This document shows, piece by piece, positions 13,102 through 28,802 of a stretch of DNA of 32,168 bases. Each line of letters begins with the position of its first letter. Within the stretch, counting starts at the first letter, position 1. This DNA is from Planctomycetota bacterium (GTDB taxonomy: Bacteria > Planctomycetota > J058), in contig RFHU01000065.1 of assembly GCA_003695705.1 (NCBI GenBank), positions 1 through 32,168 on the forward strand, read 5' to 3'. A program made the position numbers and the translations under genes. The notes under the pieces were generated by a model that ran no database searches, had not been told where the DNA came from, and saw only the letters and a program-made list of their open reading frames with translations.

Positions 13102-16100
13102 ATGGGCAACGCCGCCACCCGCGCCCTCTCGGGCCTCCTCGCGCTGAGCTTCCTCGTCCCGCCGCAGGCCCTCTTCGCCCAGGACCTGCCGCCGGGACCC
13201 GCGCAGCCGCCCGCCCCGCGCGGGGAGGCCAATGAGGCCCCCCTCGACCTCACCGTCCTCGACGCCCTCGACGTCGACCCGCGCACGGGCCGCCTGCGCC
13301 TCTCCCGCACCGACCTGGTGGTGGGCGAAGGCGACCGAGCCTTCGCCTTGCGCCGCCACTACCGTCCGGGCGCCGGCGACGCCCTCAACTTCTCCTACGA
13401 CTGGGTGTCCGTCCTCGACCACCACCTCGACGTGCACCCCTCCGGCCGCCGGGCCTCCTTCGTCGACCAGGACGGAACGCGGGTGTTCTTCGAGCGCGGG
13501 GCCTCCGGGCGCCTCGTCGCCACCCACGGCCCCCGCGCCGTCGTCGAAGTCAAGCAGGACGGCTACGTCCTCCGCGGCCTCGGCGACGACGCCGTCTACC
13601 GCTTCGACCGCGCCGGCTGGCTCCTCAGCCGCGCCGACGCCAACTACACCCTGCGCTACCGCTACGACAAGCGCGATCTGCTTCGAGCGGTGGAGGGGCC
13701 CTGGGGGACCCTGCGCATCCGGCGCGACGCCGCAGGCGTCCTCCGCGCCGTCGAGGCCCCCGACGGTCGCGTGGTGCGCTACCTGCGCGACGCCGAAGGC
13801 AACCTCGCCGAGGTCCGGCGGCCCGCCCGCCGCGAGCGCTACGGCTACGACGTCGCCGGCCGCTTGAACTCCGTGGCAGACGGCAAGGCCGAGGTGCGCT
13901 ACGACGCCCTGGGGAGGGTGATCCGCCTGGGCGGCCCGGCCTTGCGAGAGCGCCGCTTCCTCTACCTTTCCGGCGAAGGGGCCTTGGGCTCGATCACGCG
14001 CATCGTTCAGGGCGAACGCGCCTGGGAAGTCCGCGTCGCCGCCGACGGGCGCCGAATGGTGACCCGCGATCCCCGCGGGCTCGAGACCTCGGTCGCCTTC
14101 GACGAGCGCGGCCGCGCCGTGCGCCTCGAGGCGCCCGACGGTCGCACCTGGCGGCGGGTCTTCGACGAGCGAGGCCGCCTGATCGAGCGCCACGCCCCCG
14201 AGGGGGTGACCCGCTACGAATACGAGAGCAAGGTCACGGACCGCCCCACGCGGATCACCTTCCCCGACGGGCGCTGGCTGGCCCTCGACTACGACCTGCG
14301 CGGCAAGCTCATCGAGGCGCGCGCGTCGAGCGGCGCGCGCACCCGGTGGCGCTACGACCGCGACGGCCTCCTCGCCGAACGCATCGACCGGCGCGGCGCG
14401 CGCACCCGCTACGCGCGCGACGACCAGGGCCGCGTGGTGGCGGTGAGCGAAGACGGCCGCGGCACCACGCGCTTCGTCCGCGACGCCGAGGGGCGCCTGC
14501 TCGGCGTGAAGCTGCCCACGGGCCAGGTGGTCCGCGTCGAGTGGACGCCCGACGGGCGCCTGCGGCGCATCGCCGACGGCCGCGGGCCCGCCGTGGAGAA
14601 GGTCTACGACGCGCGCGGCCGCCTGCTCGGGCTTCGCGGACCGCTCGGCCGCGAGTTGAGCTACCGCTGGACCGAGCAAGGCGAACTGGCCGAGGTGCGC
14701 GACGCCCTCGGACCGGTCTTGCGCTTCGACTACGACCCCTCCGGCCTCCTCACCGCGGTGACCGACGGCGCCGGCAACACCGCCCGCATCGTCCGGGGCG
14801 AGCGGAGCCTCGAACTCCGCGATCCGACCTGGGGCGAGCGCCGCCTCCGCTACGACGACGCCGGTCGCCTCGTCGAGGAAGTGCTCGGCGGACGCAAGAT
14901 CACCTACGCCTACGACGCGCGCGGCCGCTTGGTCGGCCGGACCACCCCCCGCGGCGAGGAGCGCTTCGAATACGACCGCCACGGGCGCCTGACCCGCATG
15001 AGCGGCCCCGACGGCGCGCTGGAGCTGGCCTTCGACCCGGAGGGGCGCCTCGCGCGCCTGACCAACCCCGCCCTGGGCAAGAGCGTCGAATACGACTACG
15101 CGCCCAGCGGCGACCGCACCGCCCTACGCCTTCCCTGGGGCACGCTGCGCTACACCTACGACGTCCAGGGGCGCGTGACGGCCGTGCGCCTGCCCGAGGG
15201 CGGCGAGTTGCGCCTGGAATACGCCGCGGACGGGCGGCGCACGGCCATCCACTACCCCAACGGAGTGAGCACCCGCTTCGCCTACAAGCGAAACCGGCTG
15301 GTGCGGGTAGAGACGACCAAGGGCGACGAACTCCTCGAACGCCTCCGCTACGGCTACGACGCGATGGGCCGCCTCGCCTGGAGCGAGGACGCCAGCGGCG
15401 CGCGCACGACCTACGCCCACGACGCCCGCGGACGACTCACCGAAGTCCGCCGCGGCGAGGAGGTGACCCGCTACCGCTACGACGCCGCCGGCAACCGCAT
15501 CGCCACCGAGCGCGCCGGGAGCGTCGAGAAGGCCGAGGTCGGGGCGGGCAACCGCGTCGTCGCGCGGGGCCAGATCCGCTACGCCTACGGACCCGCCGGC
15601 GAGCTGCGCGAGGCGCGCGGCCCTGGGGGCACGACGCGCTACCAATACGATGCGGACAACCGCCTGGTGCGCGTCGAAGCCCCCGGCGGGAAGGTCGTCC
15701 GCTACGGCTACGCCCCCAACGGCACCCGCCTCTGGCGAGAGGACGAGGCCGGACGCGTCCACTACCTCTCCGACCTCGCCGACGTGGTGGGCGAGCTCGA
15801 CGCCGAGGGCACGCTCCTCACCAGCTACGTGCACGGCCCCGGGGTCGACGACGTCCTCTCCGCGCGCCACGGAGACGAACGCTTCTTCTACCACTACGAC
15901 CTCGTGCGCAGCGTGACGGCCGTGACCGGCCGCGGCGGGCGGGTGGCCGCCCGCTACGCCTACGACGCCTACGGCCAGCAGCGCCGCGCCGAAGGCGACG
16001 CCGTGGCCTGGAACCCCTTCCGCTACACCTCACGCGCCTTCGACCCCGCGACCGGCCTCTACGACTACCGGGCGCGGACCTACGCCCCCGAGTTGGGTCG

Positions 16101-17799
16101 CTTCACCACGCCCGACCCGGCGGGGCTGCGCGGTGGACCGAACCTCTACGCCTACGCTGCCGGCGACCCCGTGCTCTTCAACGACCCCTTCGGCTTCTGG
16201 CCCGACTGGCTGGATTCGGCGGCCGACTGGGCCCTCGGCGCCCTGGACACGGTCGGCGGTGCCATCGACACCGCCGTGACCGCCGTGGGAGGCGCCATCG
16301 ACGACGGCGTGACCGCGGCCGGCGGCTGGGTCGCCGACAACCTGCTCCCCGAGGCGATCCGCGAGGAAGTCTCCTACCTGGGCCGCCAGACCTGGGCCTT
16401 CACCCGCGGTTTCGGGAAGGGGATCTACGGCGCCGGCAAGGGCGTGGTGACCATGGTTCGCCACCCCGTCGACACCTACCGCGGGATCAAACACGCCATC
16501 GAGAACTGGGACGAGACCAAGGAGCGCCTGGTCGCCCTCTGGGACGAATACAAGGACGCCGCGGTGAACGACCCCGAGAAGTTCGCCGAGTGGACCGGCA
16601 TCCTCACCGCCGAAGTCGTCTTCGCGGTGGCCGGCACCAAAGGCCTCGACAAGCTGGGCAAGTCGGGAACCCTGGCGCGCATGGCGTCGAGCGAGTCGCG
16701 CGTGGCGCGGGCGGTGGCCCGCACGGCGCGGGTCGCCGCGCCCGTGGTGGACAAGGCGCGCGAATTCCGCGGCGACCTCGCGGGCCGCTTCCCGAGGGTC
16801 GCGAGCGCGCTCCGCCGCGCGCGGACCCTCGACCGCGCCCGCCGCATCGAGCTCGCCCGGCGCGCGGCCAACCCGGGGCGCTTCGTCACCCGGGTGCCGC
16901 GGCGCCTCGCGAACTTCGGCCGCGACCTCGGGCGCGGCGCGCGCCTCGCCGCGCGCGAGCCGGGCGCCTTCGTGCTCTACTCGGGGCGCCGCCTGGGCAG
17001 CGCGGCCCGCGGCCTGGTCGCCGAGACCGGCCGCGGCCTGTGGACCGCCGGGAAGTACGGGACGATCCCCGTGCTGGTTGCCTTCGAAGACGAGATCACC
17101 GACGCGGTCAAGCGCAGCGCAACGCGCGAAGCCGCCCTGGGCGAGGTCACCCGCGCGGGCCGCGCCCTTCTCGAGGACGCCGCCCGCCTGAGCCCCGAAG
17201 CGCTCGCCGAGCGAGTCCGCGAGGTGGGCCTGGTCTACCGAAACTACCGCAACCGCCTCATGGGACCCATCCACGAGGAAGACGCGCGCCTCGACCGCGA
17301 ACTGCGCGAACTCGACGCCCTGGTCGCGGCCGGGGAGATCCCCCCCGAAACCATCGACTCGCGCCTCGACGCCATGCTCGAAGAATACGGGCGGCGGCGC
17401 CACAACCTGATGGTCGACCTCTACGACCGCAACCGCGACGCCGAGCACGACATGCTCCACCCGAGCCCGAACCGGACGATCTCCTTCCAGGACGAGATCG
17501 ACCTGCTCGCGGCCGTGGCCGAGCGGGTGCGCGACCCCGCCGCCCGGGCCCTGCTCGACGCGCGCCGGGCCGACCTCGAAGAGCTCATGGAATACGAGTA
17601 CACGCTCTTCCGTTCGGGGGACCACGACGCGCTCATCGCGGGCATCGCCGGGGCGCCGCGACCCGAAGGCGAAGCCCCCGCGCTGGGCGGGTACGACCCC
17701 TACGGCCTCGGCGACCCCGCGGGGCTCGACTCGGTGGACTTCCAGCCCGACGTGGGGCCGAACGCAAACGATCCCGTCCGCCTCGACGACGGCGGCTGA
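13102..17799 (+). CDS. Sec-exported RHS/YD-repeat protein with long C-terminal domain
   Basis: 1565 residues; ATG with AAGGAG 8 nt upstream. The signal peptide is about residues 1-26 ([19 protein letters not shown]). Residues about 45-190 resemble the DUF6531-type start of RHS proteins ([20 protein letters not shown], then [11 protein letters not shown]). About 40 YD-type repeats (e.g. [21 protein letters not shown]) form the predicted hollow shell up to about residue 990. The RHS core ends with D1005-P-A-G-L...D1028-P-F-G-F1032, the paired-Asp self-cleavage signature, so autoproteolysis after about 1032 is likely. The remaining 533 residues are helical, starting with GGAID-type amphipathic repeats, then an Arg/Ala-rich basic part and a Glu/Asp-rich end. 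I see no known nuclease, deaminase or ADP-ribosylation motif. The following gene is on the other strand, so no immunity gene sits in the usual place. Confidence 0.92.
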
Positions 17800-22113: not shown

Positions 22114-22148
22114 GCCGGCCGCCGCCGGCACCCCGCTCAAAAGCGGGG
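22114..22148. terminator. Two tandem stem-loops between convergent hemA and the PEGA-like gene
   Basis: GCCGGC-CGCC-GCCGGC (22114-22129) and CCCCGCT-CAAA-AGCGGGG (22131-22148) are perfect stems 1 nt apart. The second contains the stop codon of the minus-strand lipoprotein gene (22139-22137). No T-tract follows on either strand. A third, weaker stem CCCTCC/GGAGGG (21978-21992) lies just after the hemA stop. Confidence 0.45.
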
Positions 22149-22460
22149 GTCGAGGACAAAGCGGTAGCGGGTGAGGTGCTCGCGCGCCTCCTCGGGGGTC
22201 TCGTAGCTGGGCTCGCCGGGCACGAGGATGGTCTTGGAGCGGTAGCCCACTTTGCGCAGGGCGAGGGGAAGGTTCGCGCGACCCACCCGGAGGTCGAGGA
22301 CCTGGGTGGGGGTCTCGCCGAGGAATTCCCCGGTGTCGGCGCGGAACACCATGGCGCCCGGGGGCTCGCTGTCGACCTCGACCGCGATCCACCCCCGACA
22401 GCCGGTGAGGAGGAGCAGGGAAAGCACGAGCCAGAAGAAGAGACGCGGGAACTCGGCCAT
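22137..22460 (-). CDS. Small PEGA-like lipoprotein
   Basis: 107 residues. The lipoprotein signal ends L-T-G-C21 after a strong hydrophobic stretch (LFFWLVLSLLLL). The mature part VEVDSEPPGAMVFRADTGEF continues L-G-E-T-P and resembles PEGA-type surface domains (V-x-V-x-S-x-P-x-G-A-x-V-x-x-x-G-x-x-x-G-x-T-P), with a helical tail EEAREHLTRYRFVL. PEGA domains are often linked to Ser/Thr kinases in planctomycetes and myxobacteria; here the lipoprotein is divergent from a kinase across only 62 bp. Its exact biochemical role is unknown. There is no Shine-Dalgarno: TAGGGT ends 6 nt before the ATG, suggesting a leaderless message. Confidence 0.8.
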   Translation of the reverse strand: MAEFPRLFFWLVLSLLLLTGCRGWIAVEVDSEPPGAMVFRADTGEFLGETPTQVLDLRVGRANLPLALRKVGYRSKTILVPGEPSYETPEEAREHLTRYRFVLDPRF

Positions 22461-22522
22461 GCGCAGACCCTACCCTTGCGGTGGCGTAACTCGCTACCCT
22501 GACGGCAGGTTAGACTCTGCGC
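22461..22522. promoter_or_regulatory. Mirrored divergent promoters of PEGA-like lipoprotein and kinase
   Basis: Minus strand: TAGGGT-CTGCGC then ATG at 22460. Plus strand: TAGACT-CTGCGC then GTG at 22523. The two 12-mers match at 10 of 12 positions and are inverted, so each gene begins exactly 6 nt after a TANNNT box with no room for a Shine-Dalgarno. With 17-bp spacers their -35 regions would overlap around 22488-22495, so the two could hardly fire at once. CCTTGCGGTGGC (22474-22485) and GTTAGACTCTG (22509-22519) repeat the hemA upstream blocks. Confidence 0.6.
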
Positions 22523-23986
22523 GTGGGCAACCGACGCAGGCGGCTCTTTCCCGTCCCCGACCGGCTGGGCCCCTGCCGGGGCCTGACCCCGCTCGGGGCC
22601 GGCGCCATGGGAGCGGTCTTCCTCGCGCACCACGAGCAAATGGGCATCGATGTGGCCGTCAAGGTGCTCAACCCCAAGCTCGGACGCAAGGAACCGAAGA
22701 CCTTGCAGCGCTTCGTCCGCGAAGTCCGCCTGCTGGCCAAGATCACCACCCCCCACGTGGTGCGCATCTACGACGCCGGGCAAGAGGGCCAGTACGCCTA
22801 CATGATCATGGAGCTGGTCAAGGGCAAGAGCCTCGACGCGATCCTCGCCGAGGAAGGCCGCCTCGCCCCCAGCGCCGTCGCCTACTACATGCGCGAGGTC
22901 GCCCACGGCCTCGAGGCCGTCCACCGCTGCGGCGTCGTGCACCGCGACATCAAGCCCGACAACATCATGGTCGACGAGAGCGGACAGACGAAGATCGCCG
23001 ACTTCGGGCTCGCGCGCGGTCAGGACAGCGTTCAGCTCACCCTGAACGACGAAGTCGTCGGCACCCCCGAATACATGTCGCCCGAGATCATCTCCCACGA
23101 GGAAGTCGACGGCCGCGCCGACCTCTACTCCCTCGGCGTCACCGCCTTCCAGCTCCTCACCGGCTCGACTCCCTTCCATGGCGGAACGCTCCTGCAGATC
23201 GTGCAGCGCCACCTGCGGGAACCGCCCCCCCGCGTGTCGAGCGTTCTTCCCGAGGTCCCCCCCGAGCTCGACGCCGTCGTCGCTCGCCTGCTCGAGAAGG
23301 AACCCCAGCGCCGCTACGCCAGCGCAGAGGAACTCGCCGCGGTCGTGAACCCGCTGGCCGCCCCGTCCCCCCCGCACCGCCCGCAGGCGGCCTCCGACCG
23401 CCTTCCGCAGGCCGGACGAGACACCATCGGCGGCCCGCGCCCCACCCTGCCGAGCTGGGAGGAGTTGTTCCTGATTCGGCTCCTCATCCAGCACCGGGTC
23501 TACGACCAGGGCACCCTCTTCTCGGGGGTGCGCGCCTGGCGGCGCCTCCTGGTGCCGATTCCCTTCGTCCAGTTCCTCGTCGGCCAGGGCGGACTCCCTG
23601 AGGATACGGCCTTCAAGGCCCTGCAGGCCGCCCAACAGGCCTACGCCAACCTGCGCGACCGCATCGGATTCGACCTGCTCAAGCGCTCCGGGCTGCTCCC
23701 TCCCGACCGCCTCGCGGCCATCGCCCGCACCCCTCTGCCCCCCGGCCTGAGCCTCAGCGAGTTCCTCGTTCGGCAGCGCGTGCTCGGCGAGCAAGACCGG
23801 CAGACCTTCGAACGGCACGTGGACGCCCGCCTCGCCGGTGCGGTCCAGCACTGCGTCTCCTCCGCCTGCCAGTCCGCGGGCTTCCCGCCGCAACCCCTCG
23901 AACACCTCGAGGGCCAGCTGCCGCCGCCCCGCTTCGAGGCCGTCTACCGGACGGCGCTGGCGAACTTGCTCGCCCAGCTGGGCTGA
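22523..23986 (+). CDS. Cytoplasmic Ser/Thr protein kinase with repeat-like C-terminal tail
   Basis: 487 residues from a GTG 6 nt after a TAGACT box. The Hanks-type kinase domain (about 18-285) is intact: glycine loop GAGAMGAVF, K47 in VAVKVL, catalytic HRDIKPDN with D142, D160-F-G, GTPEYMSPE, and the helical lobe DGRADLYSLGVTAFQLL. No transmembrane helix follows, unlike many bacterial kinases with sensor domains. Residues about 312-436 hold four similar short helical units (around 312, 348, 383 and 411), e.g. FVQFLVGQGGLPEDTAFKAL and LSEFLVRQRVLGEQDRQTFE, reminiscent of the helical N-terminal repeats of GspE/PilB-type ATPases. Substrates may include FHA-binding partners such as the tandem-FHA protein, but nothing in the sequence shows that directly. 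It is divergent from a PEGA-like lipoprotein gene. Confidence 0.93.
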   Translation: MGNRRRRLFPVPDRLGPCRGLTPLGAGAMGAVFLAHHEQMGIDVAVKVLNPKLGRKEPKTLQRFVREVRLLAKITTPHVVRIYDAGQEGQYAYMIMELVKGKSLDAILAEEGRLAPSAVAYYMREVAHGLEAVHRCGVVHRDIKPDNIMVDESGQTKIADFGLARGQDSVQLTLNDEVVGTPEYMSPEIISHEEVDGRADLYSLGVTAFQLLTGSTPFHGGTLLQIVQRHLREPPPRVSSVLPEVPPELDAVVARLLEKEPQRRYASAEELAAVVNPLAAPSPPHRPQAASDRLPQAGRDTIGGPRPTLPSWEELFLIRLLIQHRVYDQGTLFSGVRAWRRLLVPIPFVQFLVGQGGLPEDTAFKALQAAQQAYANLRDRIGFDLLKRSGLLPPDRLAAIARTPLPPGLSLSEFLVRQRVLGEQDRQTFERHVDARLAGAVQHCVSSACQSAGFPPQPLEHLEGQLPPPRFEAVYRTALANLLAQLG

Positions 23987-24065: not shown

Positions 24066-25589
24066 CTACTTGAGCAGGGCTTCGAGTCCGCGGTCGAGGT
24101 TGTGCTCGGGCGGGGTCTCGCCCACGATCATGGTGAACACGCCCTGGGTCCAGGTAACCACCGTGGCGAAGGCCTCGCGGCCCCGCTCGGTGGCCGTGTA
24201 GGCCGCGACCGGACTCCCCTGCTCGAAGAAGACCTCGGCCTGCCCCTGGGGCCCCTGCACGCTGACCTTGCAGGTCTTGCGGCCGAGGGAAAGCACCCGA
24301 AAGAAGTCCACCAAGGGCATGTCGGCGAGGTTGCCCTGCGCGCCCTGTCCCTGCGCCTGCGCCTGGCCCTGCTTGGCCGCACTCAACGCGCGCAGCTTGG
24401 CGAAGAGGACGTCGTAGTTGACCGGCTTGGCGAGCACGTCCTTGGCGCCGAGCTTGAGGGCCTTGTTGAGCAGCCCGGGATCGGTGCGGGCCGAGGTAAA
24501 GACGAGCGGGATCCCCTTGAGTTCCGGTGTCCGGCGCATTTTCAGCAGGAGCGAGATCCCGTCCAGCTTGGGCAAGACCGTGTCTGCGATCACCACGTCG
24601 GGTCGTTCGCTGCCGATCATCTCGAAGCCCTTGGCTCCGTTGTTGGCCGTGAGCACCTGGAAGCCCGCGGACTGGAGGCGCATCTCCATGACCGAAAGCG
24701 AAGAGGCCTCGCCGTCGATGACCAGCACCTTCGCCCCGGTGGTCCCGCTCTCCATGCGGTCCACGTAGGTCTCGTCGCGCAAGGCGCCGAAGAAGGCTTG
24801 AATCACCTGCGGGTCGTAGGCTTGCCCCTGCTTGGTGCGGATCAGCTCGGTGGCCGCCATGGGGTCGGTCCCTTCGGCGACCATGCGGCAGTAATCCCGC
24901 GTGACGGCGATGATCCGCGCGCCCACCGGGATCTGCTCGCCGGCGAGCCCGCGGGGCCGCCCGCGGCCGTCGAACATCTCGTCCACCGCCTCGATGATCC
25001 GCCTCAGGTCGTAGGGACAGCGCAGGGCGGCCAGGGCGGCCAGCGAAGCTTGCAGGTCGTGGCTCAAGCCGCCGGAGGCCCCCTGGGTCGGGTCCACTCC
25101 GAAGCGGAACTTCACCAGGCTTGGCCCCAGGGCCACCAGCGCGGCGGCGCTGGCGCAGGCGTCGACTTGATAGCGCGAGAGCCCCATGCGCAGCGCCGTG
25201 AGCTCGGTCATGCGACCGAGCTTTTCCGCCGAAGGCGCTCCCCCCGCGCCCTCCTCGGCGAGGATCGAGAGGAGCAGGAGCGCGTCGCGCGCGAATTCGG
25301 CAAGGCCGCCTCCCTCGGCAGCGCCGTCCATGAGCGCGTCCGCATAGGTCGTGGGCACGAGGACGTCGATGTTCGCCTGCAAGGCCGAGAGGTCCTCGGC
25401 CAAGGTGGGGTATTGGGCGCTGAGCGACGGCGAGACGAGGATCGCGGTGGCGTTGCTGGCACGGAGCACGTCGGCCGCGTGCCGGGGGTCGTTGGCCTCG
25501 ATCACCGTGTTCCCGTCGCGCTCGAGCAGCGAGCGGACCATCAGACGGGCCTCGGGGTCCGGTTCGAGGAGGATGACCTCGCTAGCCAT
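24066..25589 (-). CDS. Hybrid signalling protein: degenerate receiver, degenerate HD-GYP, receiver, DUF4388
   Basis: 507 residues; GGAG 7 nt before the ATG. In order: a receiver-like domain (about 1-95) lacking a clear acceptor Asp; an HD-GYP-like region (about 100-280) where the HD pair reads V-A (AAALVALGP) and GYP reads GRP (D207-G-R-G-R-P212), although the flanking RGLAGEQIPVGARIIAVTRD is typical; a receiver domain (about 288-402) with D336 in VVIADTVLPKLDG, TSAR and KP; a Gln/Ala linker; and a DUF4388/PATAN-type domain (about 415-507, PLVDFFRVLSLGRKTCKVSV). The middle receiver can probably be phosphorylated; the HD-GYP part should not hydrolyse cyclic-di-GMP. It is the last gene of a three-gene minus-strand operon, 125 bp after the preceding gene. 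Confidence 0.87.
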   Translation of the reverse strand: MASEVILLEPDPEARLMVRSLLERDGNTVIEANDPRHAADVLRASNATAILVSPSLSAQYPTLAEDLSALQANIDVLVPTTYADALMDGAAEGGGLAEFARDALLLLSILAEEGAGGAPSAEKLGRMTELTALRMGLSRYQVDACASAAALVALGPSLVKFRFGVDPTQGASGGLSHDLQASLAALAALRCPYDLRRIIEAVDEMFDGRGRPRGLAGEQIPVGARIIAVTRDYCRMVAEGTDPMAATELIRTKQGQAYDPQVIQAFFGALRDETYVDRMESGTTGAKVLVIDGEASSLSVMEMRLQSAGFQVLTANNGAKGFEMIGSERPDVVIADTVLPKLDGISLLLKMRRTPELKGIPLVFTSARTDPGLLNKALKLGAKDVLAKPVNYDVLFAKLRALSAAKQGQAQAQGQGAQGNLADMPLVDFFRVLSLGRKTCKVSVQGPQGQAEVFFEQGSPVAAYTATERGREAFATVVTWTQGVFTMIVGETPPEHNLDRGLEALLK

Positions 25590-25714
25590 GCGCGCACTCC
25601 AGGGGGATCTTCGGGCAGCCCGCAGAAGGAGTCCCCGCCCGGATCTCTCGTCGGTTGCGGCCCTTCGGGTCGCGGAACCTCCTCGCGCCGGGACAGAGCT
25701 CCTTCAACGAACTG

Positions 25715-27142
25715 CTAGGCCAAAAGGTAGTCGGGGACGTTGATGCCAAGCTCGGTGGGGTCCACCGAGCCGGTGATCTCGGCAGGGTAGCGCCCGTCGA
25801 TCTTCTCGGCGAGGTCCAAGAAATCGCCATCGCCCTGCAGACCGTTGCGGTCCATGACGATGGCCACCAGGGGGCGCTTGGGCTTCTGCGGGTTGGGGTG
25901 GACGACGACGGCGATCTCCCCCGTGCTGAGGGTGACCGTGGTCCCCGTGGGGAAGAGGCCCATCATGTTGGTGAAGACCGTCAAGATCACCTCGTCGAAC
26001 CATCCCTTGGGCGCCGACACCATCTTCTTGATCGCCTGGTCCGGGGACATGGCCGGACGGTCGGCGAGGTTGCTGGTGAGCAGGTCGTAGGCCTCGCACA
26101 CGCGAATGATCTTCGCGTAGGGGTGCTCCTCGGGCAGCGGCTTGCGCAGGTTGGTCTGCTTGCGCACCAGGTCCCATTCGAAGCCCGCGGTGCTGGCGAC
26201 CAGAGTCTTGCGGGTGATCTTCCGCCCTTCGGCGACCGCTCCCAGCAGGCGGTAGGGATGACGCCCCAGCTCCTTCATGGCCTGCGGCGGCATCTTCGTC
26301 CGGTTCCAGAGCCGCTTGTCGGTGCGGAACTTGCCGAGCCCGTGGAGCATGGCGGCCAGCCCGAGGTCCGAGAGGTTGACCCGGCTGATCCCCAGGTTGT
26401 GGCCCAAGACGATGGAGAGCATCCCCACGTTGGCCATGTGGTTGAAGAGGAAGTCGTCCACGTCGCGCACGCCGGCCATGGCGAGAAACTTGTGCGGATA
26501 CTTGTTCACCAAGCGCACCAGCTCCTGGATCGCGCGGTGGAGCTTCTGGGTGAAGTAGCGGTTGAGCTCCTCCTGGCGGAGGTTCTTCACGTATTCCCGC
26601 AGGAGGACCAGGGTCCGCGCGTAGGCGAGCGGGAAGTAGGTCTTCTCGTCGATCTCGATCTGCTGGATCTGGGCCGCGCCCGTGGTCTCGCCGGGTCGGT
26701 AGACCTGGATCAACTCGGCGAGCTTGGCGTTCTTGAGCCCTTCCTTGACGGCGTCCACGTCGAGCTCGCGCACCCCCTCAGGGAGCTTGAGCAGGCCGAA
26801 GAAGGCGCGCAGAGCGTCCACCGAGACCGCGCCCGTGAACGCGATCTCCGCGATCCCGATCTGGTCCAGGGCCTTGACCAGGCCCTGAATGGTACCGAAG
26901 GCGCGACGTCCGCCGCGAACCGGGTCCTTGTTGAAGTAGAGCATGCCCTCTTCGGACTGGACCCGGGCCGAACCCATGCGGTCGGAAACGCGAATGATCA
27001 CGTCGCGCAGCTTGGTGAGCGGCTCGGTGAAATTCACGTTGTCGGTGTCGTAGAGGCGGGTCAGGCGCAGGCTCTGCAGCATGTGCTTGCAGAACTCGAG
27101 CGCCTGCTGCTGGCCGCTGTTCTCCTGCAGGTCGAGGGCCAC
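25715..27142 (-). CDS. Degenerate HD-GYP-like protein
   Basis: 475 residues from a GTG; CGGAGG lies 8 nt upstream inside the end of the preceding gene. Residues about 1-200 are helical and mixed with no family I know. Residues about 205-400 resemble an HD-GYP domain: H235 in FNHMANVGMLSIVLGHNLG, then H267-G268 in MLHGLGK where the metal-binding H-D pair should be, RHPYRLLG in place of the HP-x-x-G segment, and ASTAGFEW where HHE...DGSGYP is expected. Metal-dependent phosphodiesterase activity is therefore unlikely. A small beta-rich region (VTLSTGEIAVVVHPNPQKPK) ends the protein, as in many HD-GYP proteins. It lies between the helical-repeat gene (4-nt gap) and the hybrid receiver protein gene, all on the minus strand. 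Confidence 0.82.
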   Translation of the reverse strand: MALDLQENSGQQQALEFCKHMLQSLRLTRLYDTDNVNFTEPLTKLRDVIIRVSDRMGSARVQSEEGMLYFNKDPVRGGRRAFGTIQGLVKALDQIGIAEIAFTGAVSVDALRAFFGLLKLPEGVRELDVDAVKEGLKNAKLAELIQVYRPGETTGAAQIQQIEIDEKTYFPLAYARTLVLLREYVKNLRQEELNRYFTQKLHRAIQELVRLVNKYPHKFLAMAGVRDVDDFLFNHMANVGMLSIVLGHNLGISRVNLSDLGLAAMLHGLGKFRTDKRLWNRTKMPPQAMKELGRHPYRLLGAVAEGRKITRKTLVASTAGFEWDLVRKQTNLRKPLPEEHPYAKIIRVCEAYDLLTSNLADRPAMSPDQAIKKMVSAPKGWFDEVILTVFTNMMGLFPTGTTVTLSTGEIAVVVHPNPQKPKRPLVAIVMDRNGLQGDGDFLDLAEKIDGRYPAEITGSVDPTELGINVPDYLLA

Positions 27143-27146
27143 GGGG

Positions 27147-28802
27147 CTAGCCTCCGGTCTTGAGGTCGCTGAGCGCCTTGGCGGCGAACTCGCGGATCTC
27201 GGCGACCGACTTGCGGTTGAAGATCAAGGCCCGGCGCCGGGTCTGCTGCTCGAGGAAAGGAACGGCCGCGGCCCCGCCCAAGAGCCGCAAGGCTTCGATG
27301 GTCGCCGCGCGCTCGTGCACGTCACGACGAGGGAACTCCGGCGAGGCGATGACTTCCTTGAGTCGCTCCGCCGCGGGGTGGTAGGCGCGCCGCACCAAGG
27401 TCTGCAGAGCCTTCACTCGGTCGGCTCGTTTCTCCGCGCCGAGCGCGTCCATGAGCTGGGCCGCCTGGCCGGCCTTCGTGTGCGTCCGCCAGAGATGGTC
27501 GGCGTATTTCGCGATGTCCGGGTCCGCGTGCTCGCGGCAGCGCTCGAGCAGCTTGGCGAGCTTCTTGCCTTTGATTCGCCGCTCGGACTTGTTGATGACG
27601 AACATGCCCGCCTTGACGGTCTCGGCGTCGAGGGAGGGGTCCAGCATGGGCAAGAGCGCCAGGGGCGCCTTGTAGAGGTTCGCCTGCAGGAACGCGGTCA
27701 GGGCCTCGCGAAGCTCGACGTTGTCCTTGGCCTCGAGGTAGGTGGCGACGCCGGTGGTCACGCCGGTCGGTCCCATGGCCGCCAGGATCTTGCAGAAGGC
27801 CACCGGACCGCCCACTCCCTTCCCGCTGGTCGCCAGCTGCACCATGCGGACGATGTTCTCCTCACGGCCGAGCCACTCGAAGACGCGGGCAAAGAGCGCG
27901 CGGTCCTCGTCGCGCTCGAGGGCCGGGACTTCCTCCTCGTAGCGGGCCAGGATGTCGCCGAGCAGGTCCATGTCCTGGCTGCGCAGGCTCATGGAGGCCG
28001 CCTCGGTGAGCAGCCACTCGATCATGTCGCGGGTAATGATCTGCGGCTCCACGGCGTAGCCGTCGAGCATGTGGTCGACGTAGACCCGCAGCATGCGGTC
28101 GGGGCCCCACACGAGGACCTGGCGCTGGAAGCGCGCGAGGGCCTCCTCGTCGACCTGGAAGATGTCGTCGTCCTCCTCCCGCTCCTCGACCTCGTCGAGG
28201 TCCTCAATGGACTCCAGCTCGCGGGCCCCGTCGGTGAGTTCGAAGGCGTAGGCGCCCCGGTCGGCGTTGGCGGTGAGCTGCTCGACGATCCGGTCCACGT
28301 TGGCGTTCATTTGCTTGAGCAAGTCGAGCTGCTCGTTGGAAAAGTAGTCGGGCGCGTCCCAGGCCTCGGAGAGCTGGTTGATGGCTGCGTAGTCGACGTT
28401 GGTGAAGTCCGCCTCCCAGAGGAGGAGGGTCGAGTCGGCGTCGGGATCTACGATGGCCTGATAGAAGACCATGCACAGCTTCTCCGCCTCCTCGGCGGTC
28501 ACCCCGTTGCTGATGCTGATCTCGCGCAGACCGTCTACGTAGAGGCGGAAGGCGAGGTTCTCCTTCTGCTCGGGGTTCTCGTAGACCGCGTCGTCCCCGA
28601 TCCCCAAGGTCTCCTGGTTGACGGTGATCCGGAGCACGTTGTGCAGCGAGACGTAGGAGCGGAGGCGGTTGGAGAACTCCTCCACGGCCGAGGTGCAGTG
28701 CACGTGGTGGTGGGGATAGAGTTTGAGGTTCGTGTAGGCCTTGACGAAGAGGTTGAAGACCTCCCGGGCGAACATGACCTTTTCGTGGTCGGCCCCTGCC
28801 AT
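27147..28802 (-). CDS. Helical (HEAT-like) protein of unknown function, first gene of signalling operon
   Basis: 551 residues; ATG with AGGAGG 4 nt upstream. The first 170 residues (VFNLFVKAYTNLKLYPHHHV, VLRITVNQETLGIGDDAVYE) look like a folded domain and resemble the opening of the next gene product. An acidic stretch EDLDEVEEREEDDD (around 200) separates it from an alpha-helical C-terminal half with HEAT-type helix pairs, e.g. HERAATIEALRLLGGAAAVP and VAEIREFAAKALSDL. There are no catalytic motifs. It probably acts as a scaffold or adaptor for the degenerate HD-GYP protein encoded 4 nt downstream. A TAGAGT box at 28850-28845 on the minus strand is the likely -10 for the operon, with a leader of about 35 nt. 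Confidence 0.8.
   Translation of the reverse strand: MAGADHEKVMFAREVFNLFVKAYTNLKLYPHHHVHCTSAVEEFSNRLRSYVSLHNVLRITVNQETLGIGDDAVYENPEQKENLAFRLYVDGLREISISNGVTAEEAEKLCMVFYQAIVDPDADSTLLLWEADFTNVDYAAINQLSEAWDAPDYFSNEQLDLLKQMNANVDRIVEQLTANADRGAYAFELTDGARELESIEDLDEVEEREEDDDIFQVDEEALARFQRQVLVWGPDRMLRVYVDHMLDGYAVEPQIITRDMIEWLLTEAASMSLRSQDMDLLGDILARYEEEVPALERDEDRALFARVFEWLGREENIVRMVQLATSGKGVGGPVAFCKILAAMGPTGVTTGVATYLEAKDNVELREALTAFLQANLYKAPLALLPMLDPSLDAETVKAGMFVINKSERRIKGKKLAKLLERCREHADPDIAKYADHLWRTHTKAGQAAQLMDALGAEKRADRVKALQTLVRRAYHPAAERLKEVIASPEFPRRDVHERAATIEALRLLGGAAAVPFLEQQTRRRALIFNRKSVAEIREFAAKALSDLKTGG

Follow-up and report, generated by a model that had tools for sequence, protein, structure and literature searches.

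Leaderless genes in which a TANNNT -10 element adjoins the open reading frame have been described previously (Zheng et al., 2011; PMC3160421). The class is represented by the leaderless TANNNT genes with the Deinococcus-Thermus -10 motif (PMC12340547) and by a TANNNT class among the leaderless genes of M. tuberculosis (PMC3898074). Bidirectional promoters are a second described arrangement, in which one -10 element serves two divergent transcription starts at a distance of 7-25 bp from each other (PMC10268837; PMC12825309); for bacteria, PMC10268837 cites Warman et al. (2021) on such promoters. When we searched the literature for leaderless starts in Planctomycetota, only a hint from one genome was found (PMC5397173).

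The locus examined here lies in a window that is one entire contig (32,168 bp) of a 6.6-Mb genome in 564 contigs, with a G+C content of about 71% in the sampled part. At positions 22461-22522 (GCGCAGACCCTACCC...GGTTAGACTCTGCGC), a 62-bp gap separates two divergent genes, and it reads TAGGGT-CTGCGC-ATG on the minus strand and TAGACT-CTGCGC-GTG on the plus strand. We predict TAGGGT (22467-22472, minus strand) to be the -10 element of a small lipoprotein gene, and TAGACT (22511-22516, plus strand) that of a Ser/Thr protein kinase gene. The same 6-nt spacer, CTGCGC, leads from the former to the ATG (22461-22466, minus strand) and from the latter to the GTG (22517-22522, plus strand). With 17-bp spacers, both expected -35 positions overlap at 22488-22495, where no TTGACA-like match was found on either strand. 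The gap coordinates, the two 12-mers, the 6-nt spacings and the start codons given in the preliminary description were exact when the sequence was re-read.

The minus-strand gene (22137-22460), recovered by an independent gene call, encodes a lipoprotein of 107 aa whose N-terminus is a signal peptide with the lipobox LLTGC (MAEFPRLFFWLVLSLLLLTGC). Its match to the PEGA domain (PF08308) is weak, at 16.8 bits against a cut-off of 20.8, while its sole confident homologue, found in a related genome (G001) at 42% identity, is a full match at 25.1 bits. A scan of genome contigs with the lipoprotein found no relative. The plus-strand gene (22523-23986) encodes a kinase of 487 aa, a clear PF00069 member that scores above the cut-off (199 bits). 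It has orthologues in four family members (G003-G006, 44-50% identity), among which the catalytic H-R-D and D-F-G are invariant, and its C-terminal region is common only to its own Planctomycetota family; a scan of genome contigs with the kinase alignment returned generic kinases only, at about 40% identity or less. The starts at 22460 (minus strand) and 22523 (plus strand) were also picked by a codon-usage gene caller that is blind to upstream signals. Both boxes begin with a TAG that is in frame with the start codon (ATG for the lipoprotein, GTG for the kinase) and forms a stop codon 12 nt 5' of it, so that neither open reading frame can extend past -12 and both start codons are pinned. Both starts also appear biologically sensible, with a signal peptide predicted right after the one and the glycine-rich loop of the kinase reached about 24 residues after the other.

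Compared to the described class (PMC3160421; PMC12340547; PMC3898074), the similarities are a TANNNT about 12 nt 5' of the start codon, a weak or absent -35 element, no Shine-Dalgarno (SD) site at a working spacing at the level of the class, a high-GC genome, and boxed genes that form a substantial minority. The differences are that the lineage is a Planctomycetota family, that both ATG and, more sharply, GTG show the offset peak, and that the present start sites are predictions, while those of the published cases were mapped or tested.

This comparison draws on gene statistics from about 1.13 Mb (17%) of the genome, with starts set by a simple home-made gene caller. In this sample, GTG followed TANNNT at exactly N6 in 70 cases, compared with about 20 for other offsets; for ATG, 22, 25 and 19 cases were counted at N6, N7 and N8, against about 9 elsewhere. 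Among called genes the excess of boxes lay at N6-8 and was strongest in divergent genes: 39 of 232 had a TANNNT at this distance, compared to about one gene per offset elsewhere, so that a single box of this kind exceeds chance expectation. SD sites, taken as pairing at -5 kcal/mol or stronger between -15 and -4, preceded 9% of the boxed genes versus 60% (Mann-Whitney p = 3e-16), and the TTG of the -35 element was weak in boxed genes genome-wide. Over the whole genome, TANNNT-N6-GTG was counted 307 times and the phase-matched N12 control 120 times; the seven family genomes searched all had an N6 excess, of 1.8- to 4.5-fold. The present genome also has many SD-led genes, and the anti-SD tail is intact in the 16S rRNA of one family member, G005. 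That 16S sequence matches probe PLA46 exactly and probe PLA886 with one mismatch; from the specificity that we presume for these probes, we take the family to belong to Planctomycetota. It is thus well supported, at the level of sequence, that TANNNT-adjacent leaderless starts would be a common mode of expression in this family, beside SD-led ones. Elsewhere in the phylum, most genomes had an N6/N12 ratio close to 1, and in some the ratio reached about 2. Six genomes outside the family (G009, G012, G024, G031, G037 and G042) had a 1.5- to 2-fold N6 excess, and leaderless starts may therefore be patchy across the phylum.

We consider it probable that the gap contains two separate leaderless TANNNT promoters, in a layout that follows from the commonness of leaderless starts and with no dedicated two-gene switch. 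Each would be a promoter of the housekeeping-sigma type, consisting mainly of its -10 element, from which transcription would begin with the first nucleotide of the start codon (position 22460 for the minus-strand gene and 22523 for the plus-strand gene). Both mRNAs would consequently be leaderless, and they would presumably be translated by direct binding of the 70S ribosome to the 5' start codon.

One alternative is that the boxes arose by chance, and that transcription starts farther upstream, within the neighbouring gene, giving a short leader with a weak SD site. On the lipoprotein side, the sequence AAGGGTAGGG 5' of the ATG has a pairing energy of -8.2 kcal/mol with the anti-SD when 20 nt are considered, a CAGGT lies upstream of the kinase, and a second plus-strand TANNNT (TACCCT) is found upstream at 22495-22500; the intact anti-SD and the many SD-led genes also suit such a reading. 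For the kinase, however, no SD site is present at a proper spacing (-2.7 kcal/mol within -15..-4 and 0.5 within -13..-5), and orthologues keep the box at the start codon where SD-like sequence is not kept; the kinase orthologues with a full box have TAGACT-N6-GTG in G006, TACACT-N7-ATG in G004 and TACACT-N9-GTG in G005. The absence of SD sites from boxed genes as a class points the same way, and we regard chance boxes as unlikely. The lipoprotein is the less clear-cut of the two, since an AGGG inside its own box lies at the distance expected of an SD site (about -3.8 kcal/mol for the stretch -13..-5 and -6.5 for -15..-4), so an SD-led start is possible for this gene.

The full box is thus kept in three of the four kinase orthologues, four being all the orthologous upstream regions that were readable, and in the one lipoprotein homologue, which has TAGCCT-N6-ATG. 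In the fourth kinase orthologue (L213, G003:C320), an imperfect TAGAAC-N8-ATG is accompanied by AGGAG near the ATG, which could represent a switch between leaderless and SD-led starts. The spacer CTGCGC was conserved neither in the kinase orthologues, whose spacers differ and are GC-rich, nor in the lipoprotein homologue, and further upstream of the boxes the alignment of the four kinase orthologues was not convincing. Each box by itself looks like a conserved footprint. Conservation of both 12-mers in relatives had been put forward as a check; it holds for the boxes and fails for the spacers. The earlier proposal that both genes are leaderless is supported by the TANNNT peak, the SD depletion of boxed genes and the conservation of the boxes.

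The preliminary description had also proposed that the two promoters share overlapping RNA-polymerase territory. Geometrically this is true, the predicted start sites being 63 bp apart with overlapping -35 zones, and some mutual hindrance of the two polymerases in the gap is therefore likely. The geometry is not in itself evidence of regulation. In a compact gap with two close opposed promoters that would in principle compete for polymerase, a single bidirectional promoter with one symmetric -10 element used both ways might be considered. The gap, however, has two separate -10 elements, and the predicted distance of 63 bp compares with 7-25 bp around a shared -10 in the defined cases, which leaves this explanation with a negligible probability.

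Another possibility is a divergent regulatory module, in which the mirrored 12-mers form a dyad (an operator or a shared promoter) and the lipoprotein and the kinase are a functional unit, expressed exclusively or in co-regulation. The two 12-mers agree at 10 of 12 positions, three of which are the fixed letters of TANNNT, and their 6-nt spacers are identical; agreement of 10/12 or better was found for 1.5% of all N6-boxed gene pairs in the 1.13-Mb sample. The shared spacer is therefore mildly unusual, but not compelling, and it is not kept in the orthologues. We also evaluated the 12-mer as an operator defining a regulon. There are five copies of TAGRSTCTGCGC in the 6.6-Mb genome and none of the reversed control. 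Two of the other three copies lie 7 nt 5' of an ATG, while the third is followed by a leader of 21 nt that contains AAGGAGG; the translations read after them correspond to a glycosyltransferase, an acyl-CoA dehydrogenase (the gene with the AAGGAGG leader) and a ComM-like ATPase. The operator was rejected, as these copies precede unrelated genes, one of them with a normal SD leader.

Double boxes are about as frequent as independence predicts, both overall and within classes of gap length, which also speaks against a regulatory module. In the own-genome sample, 6 of 116 divergent pairs were double-boxed, where 4.8 were expected. Box frequency was 0.35 in gaps under 120 bp and 0.14 in gaps of 200-400 bp, and within the gaps under 120 bp two double boxes were observed against 2.45 expected. 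The corresponding figures in 400 kb of G005 were 4 against 2.5 overall and 4 against 2.8 in short gaps. A Fisher test combining the two genomes gave p = 0.13 on small counts, and with expected counts as small as these, the two sides may still be modestly coupled. Within the same spacing range, the exact N6/N6 mirrored pattern occurred 2, 0, 3, 5, 1 and 3 times in G000 (the present genome) to G005, and its reversed control never; ten of the 12 family mirror sites examined sit between two long divergent open reading frames, which encode varied proteins. In G008, outside the family, there were 12 occurrences of the pattern and 7 of its control; none of the three sites examined there lay between two long divergent open reading frames. 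With a frequency near independence and a recurrence between unrelated genes, the mirrored layout is thus a recurrent and unremarkable one in this family, contrary to the earlier view that it is what stands out here. It is explained by leaderless starts being common, and commoner still in short divergent gaps.

The only other N6/N6 mirror of the present genome in the searched range (L223, G000:C465:10726-10789) has a 58-bp gap, with a Ser/Thr kinase-like open reading frame on one side and, on the other, a protein of 205 aa whose N-terminus resembles a zinc ribbon. The kinase at this site is probably a coincidence, given how many kinases of this type the phylum has. At L226 (G005:C39:75140-75195) and L229 (G002:C285:20005-20060), two congeneric species of the family retain a mirrored pair with a 50-bp gap, flanked in both by the same genes. 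Such retention, like the 63-bp distance at which polymerases would overlap, could be read in favour of a regulatory module, and coupling would be better tested on this pair than on the one at 22461-22522.

The gene neighbourhood weighs against the same explanation. The PEGA-like lipoprotein and the kinase are two separate divergent genes, and their adjacency is absent from every relative examined: the lipoprotein was found beside the kinase in none of the five family members of other genera (G002-G006), and the homologue in G001 sits downstream of a same-strand gene. What the kinase does keep is a cluster of three convergent genes (24066-28802, minus strand), encoding a protein with HD, response-regulator and DUF4388 domains, a second HD protein and a protein of unknown type; the cluster lies beside the kinase also in G005 and in G002, whose contig carries the kinase C-terminus only, with 50-58% identity. 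It is probably the real functional neighbourhood of the kinase, and would be a better guide to its pathway than the lipoprotein. The earlier idea of a surface lipoprotein tied to a cytoplasmic kinase is thus not borne out, and a regulatory module comprising the two genes appears very improbable. Elsewhere in the window, an RHS-repeat protein of at least 1,565 aa, with 17 RHS repeat stretches and DUF6531 (13102-17799, plus strand), is 52-56% identical to proteins on the contigs of G002 and G005 that carry the kinase relatives.

Our findings indicate that the pair at 22461-22522 is real but an ordinary case of a promoter class that is already known, from a lineage for which few records exist. 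The lipoprotein-kinase pair itself carries little weight, and the family-wide evidence for leaderless starts is a useful by-product of its study. One may speculate, at rather long odds, that compact leaderless pairs in this family, with starts roughly 42-65 bp apart, act as built-in either/or switches through polymerase exclusion; if true, this would apply to divergent gene couples in which neither transcript has a leader, the present pair included. Close leaderless promoter pairs are in any event ready sites for tests of polymerase interference, and within the family, TANNNT-adjacent starts would provide a simple rule for correcting the annotation of start codons.
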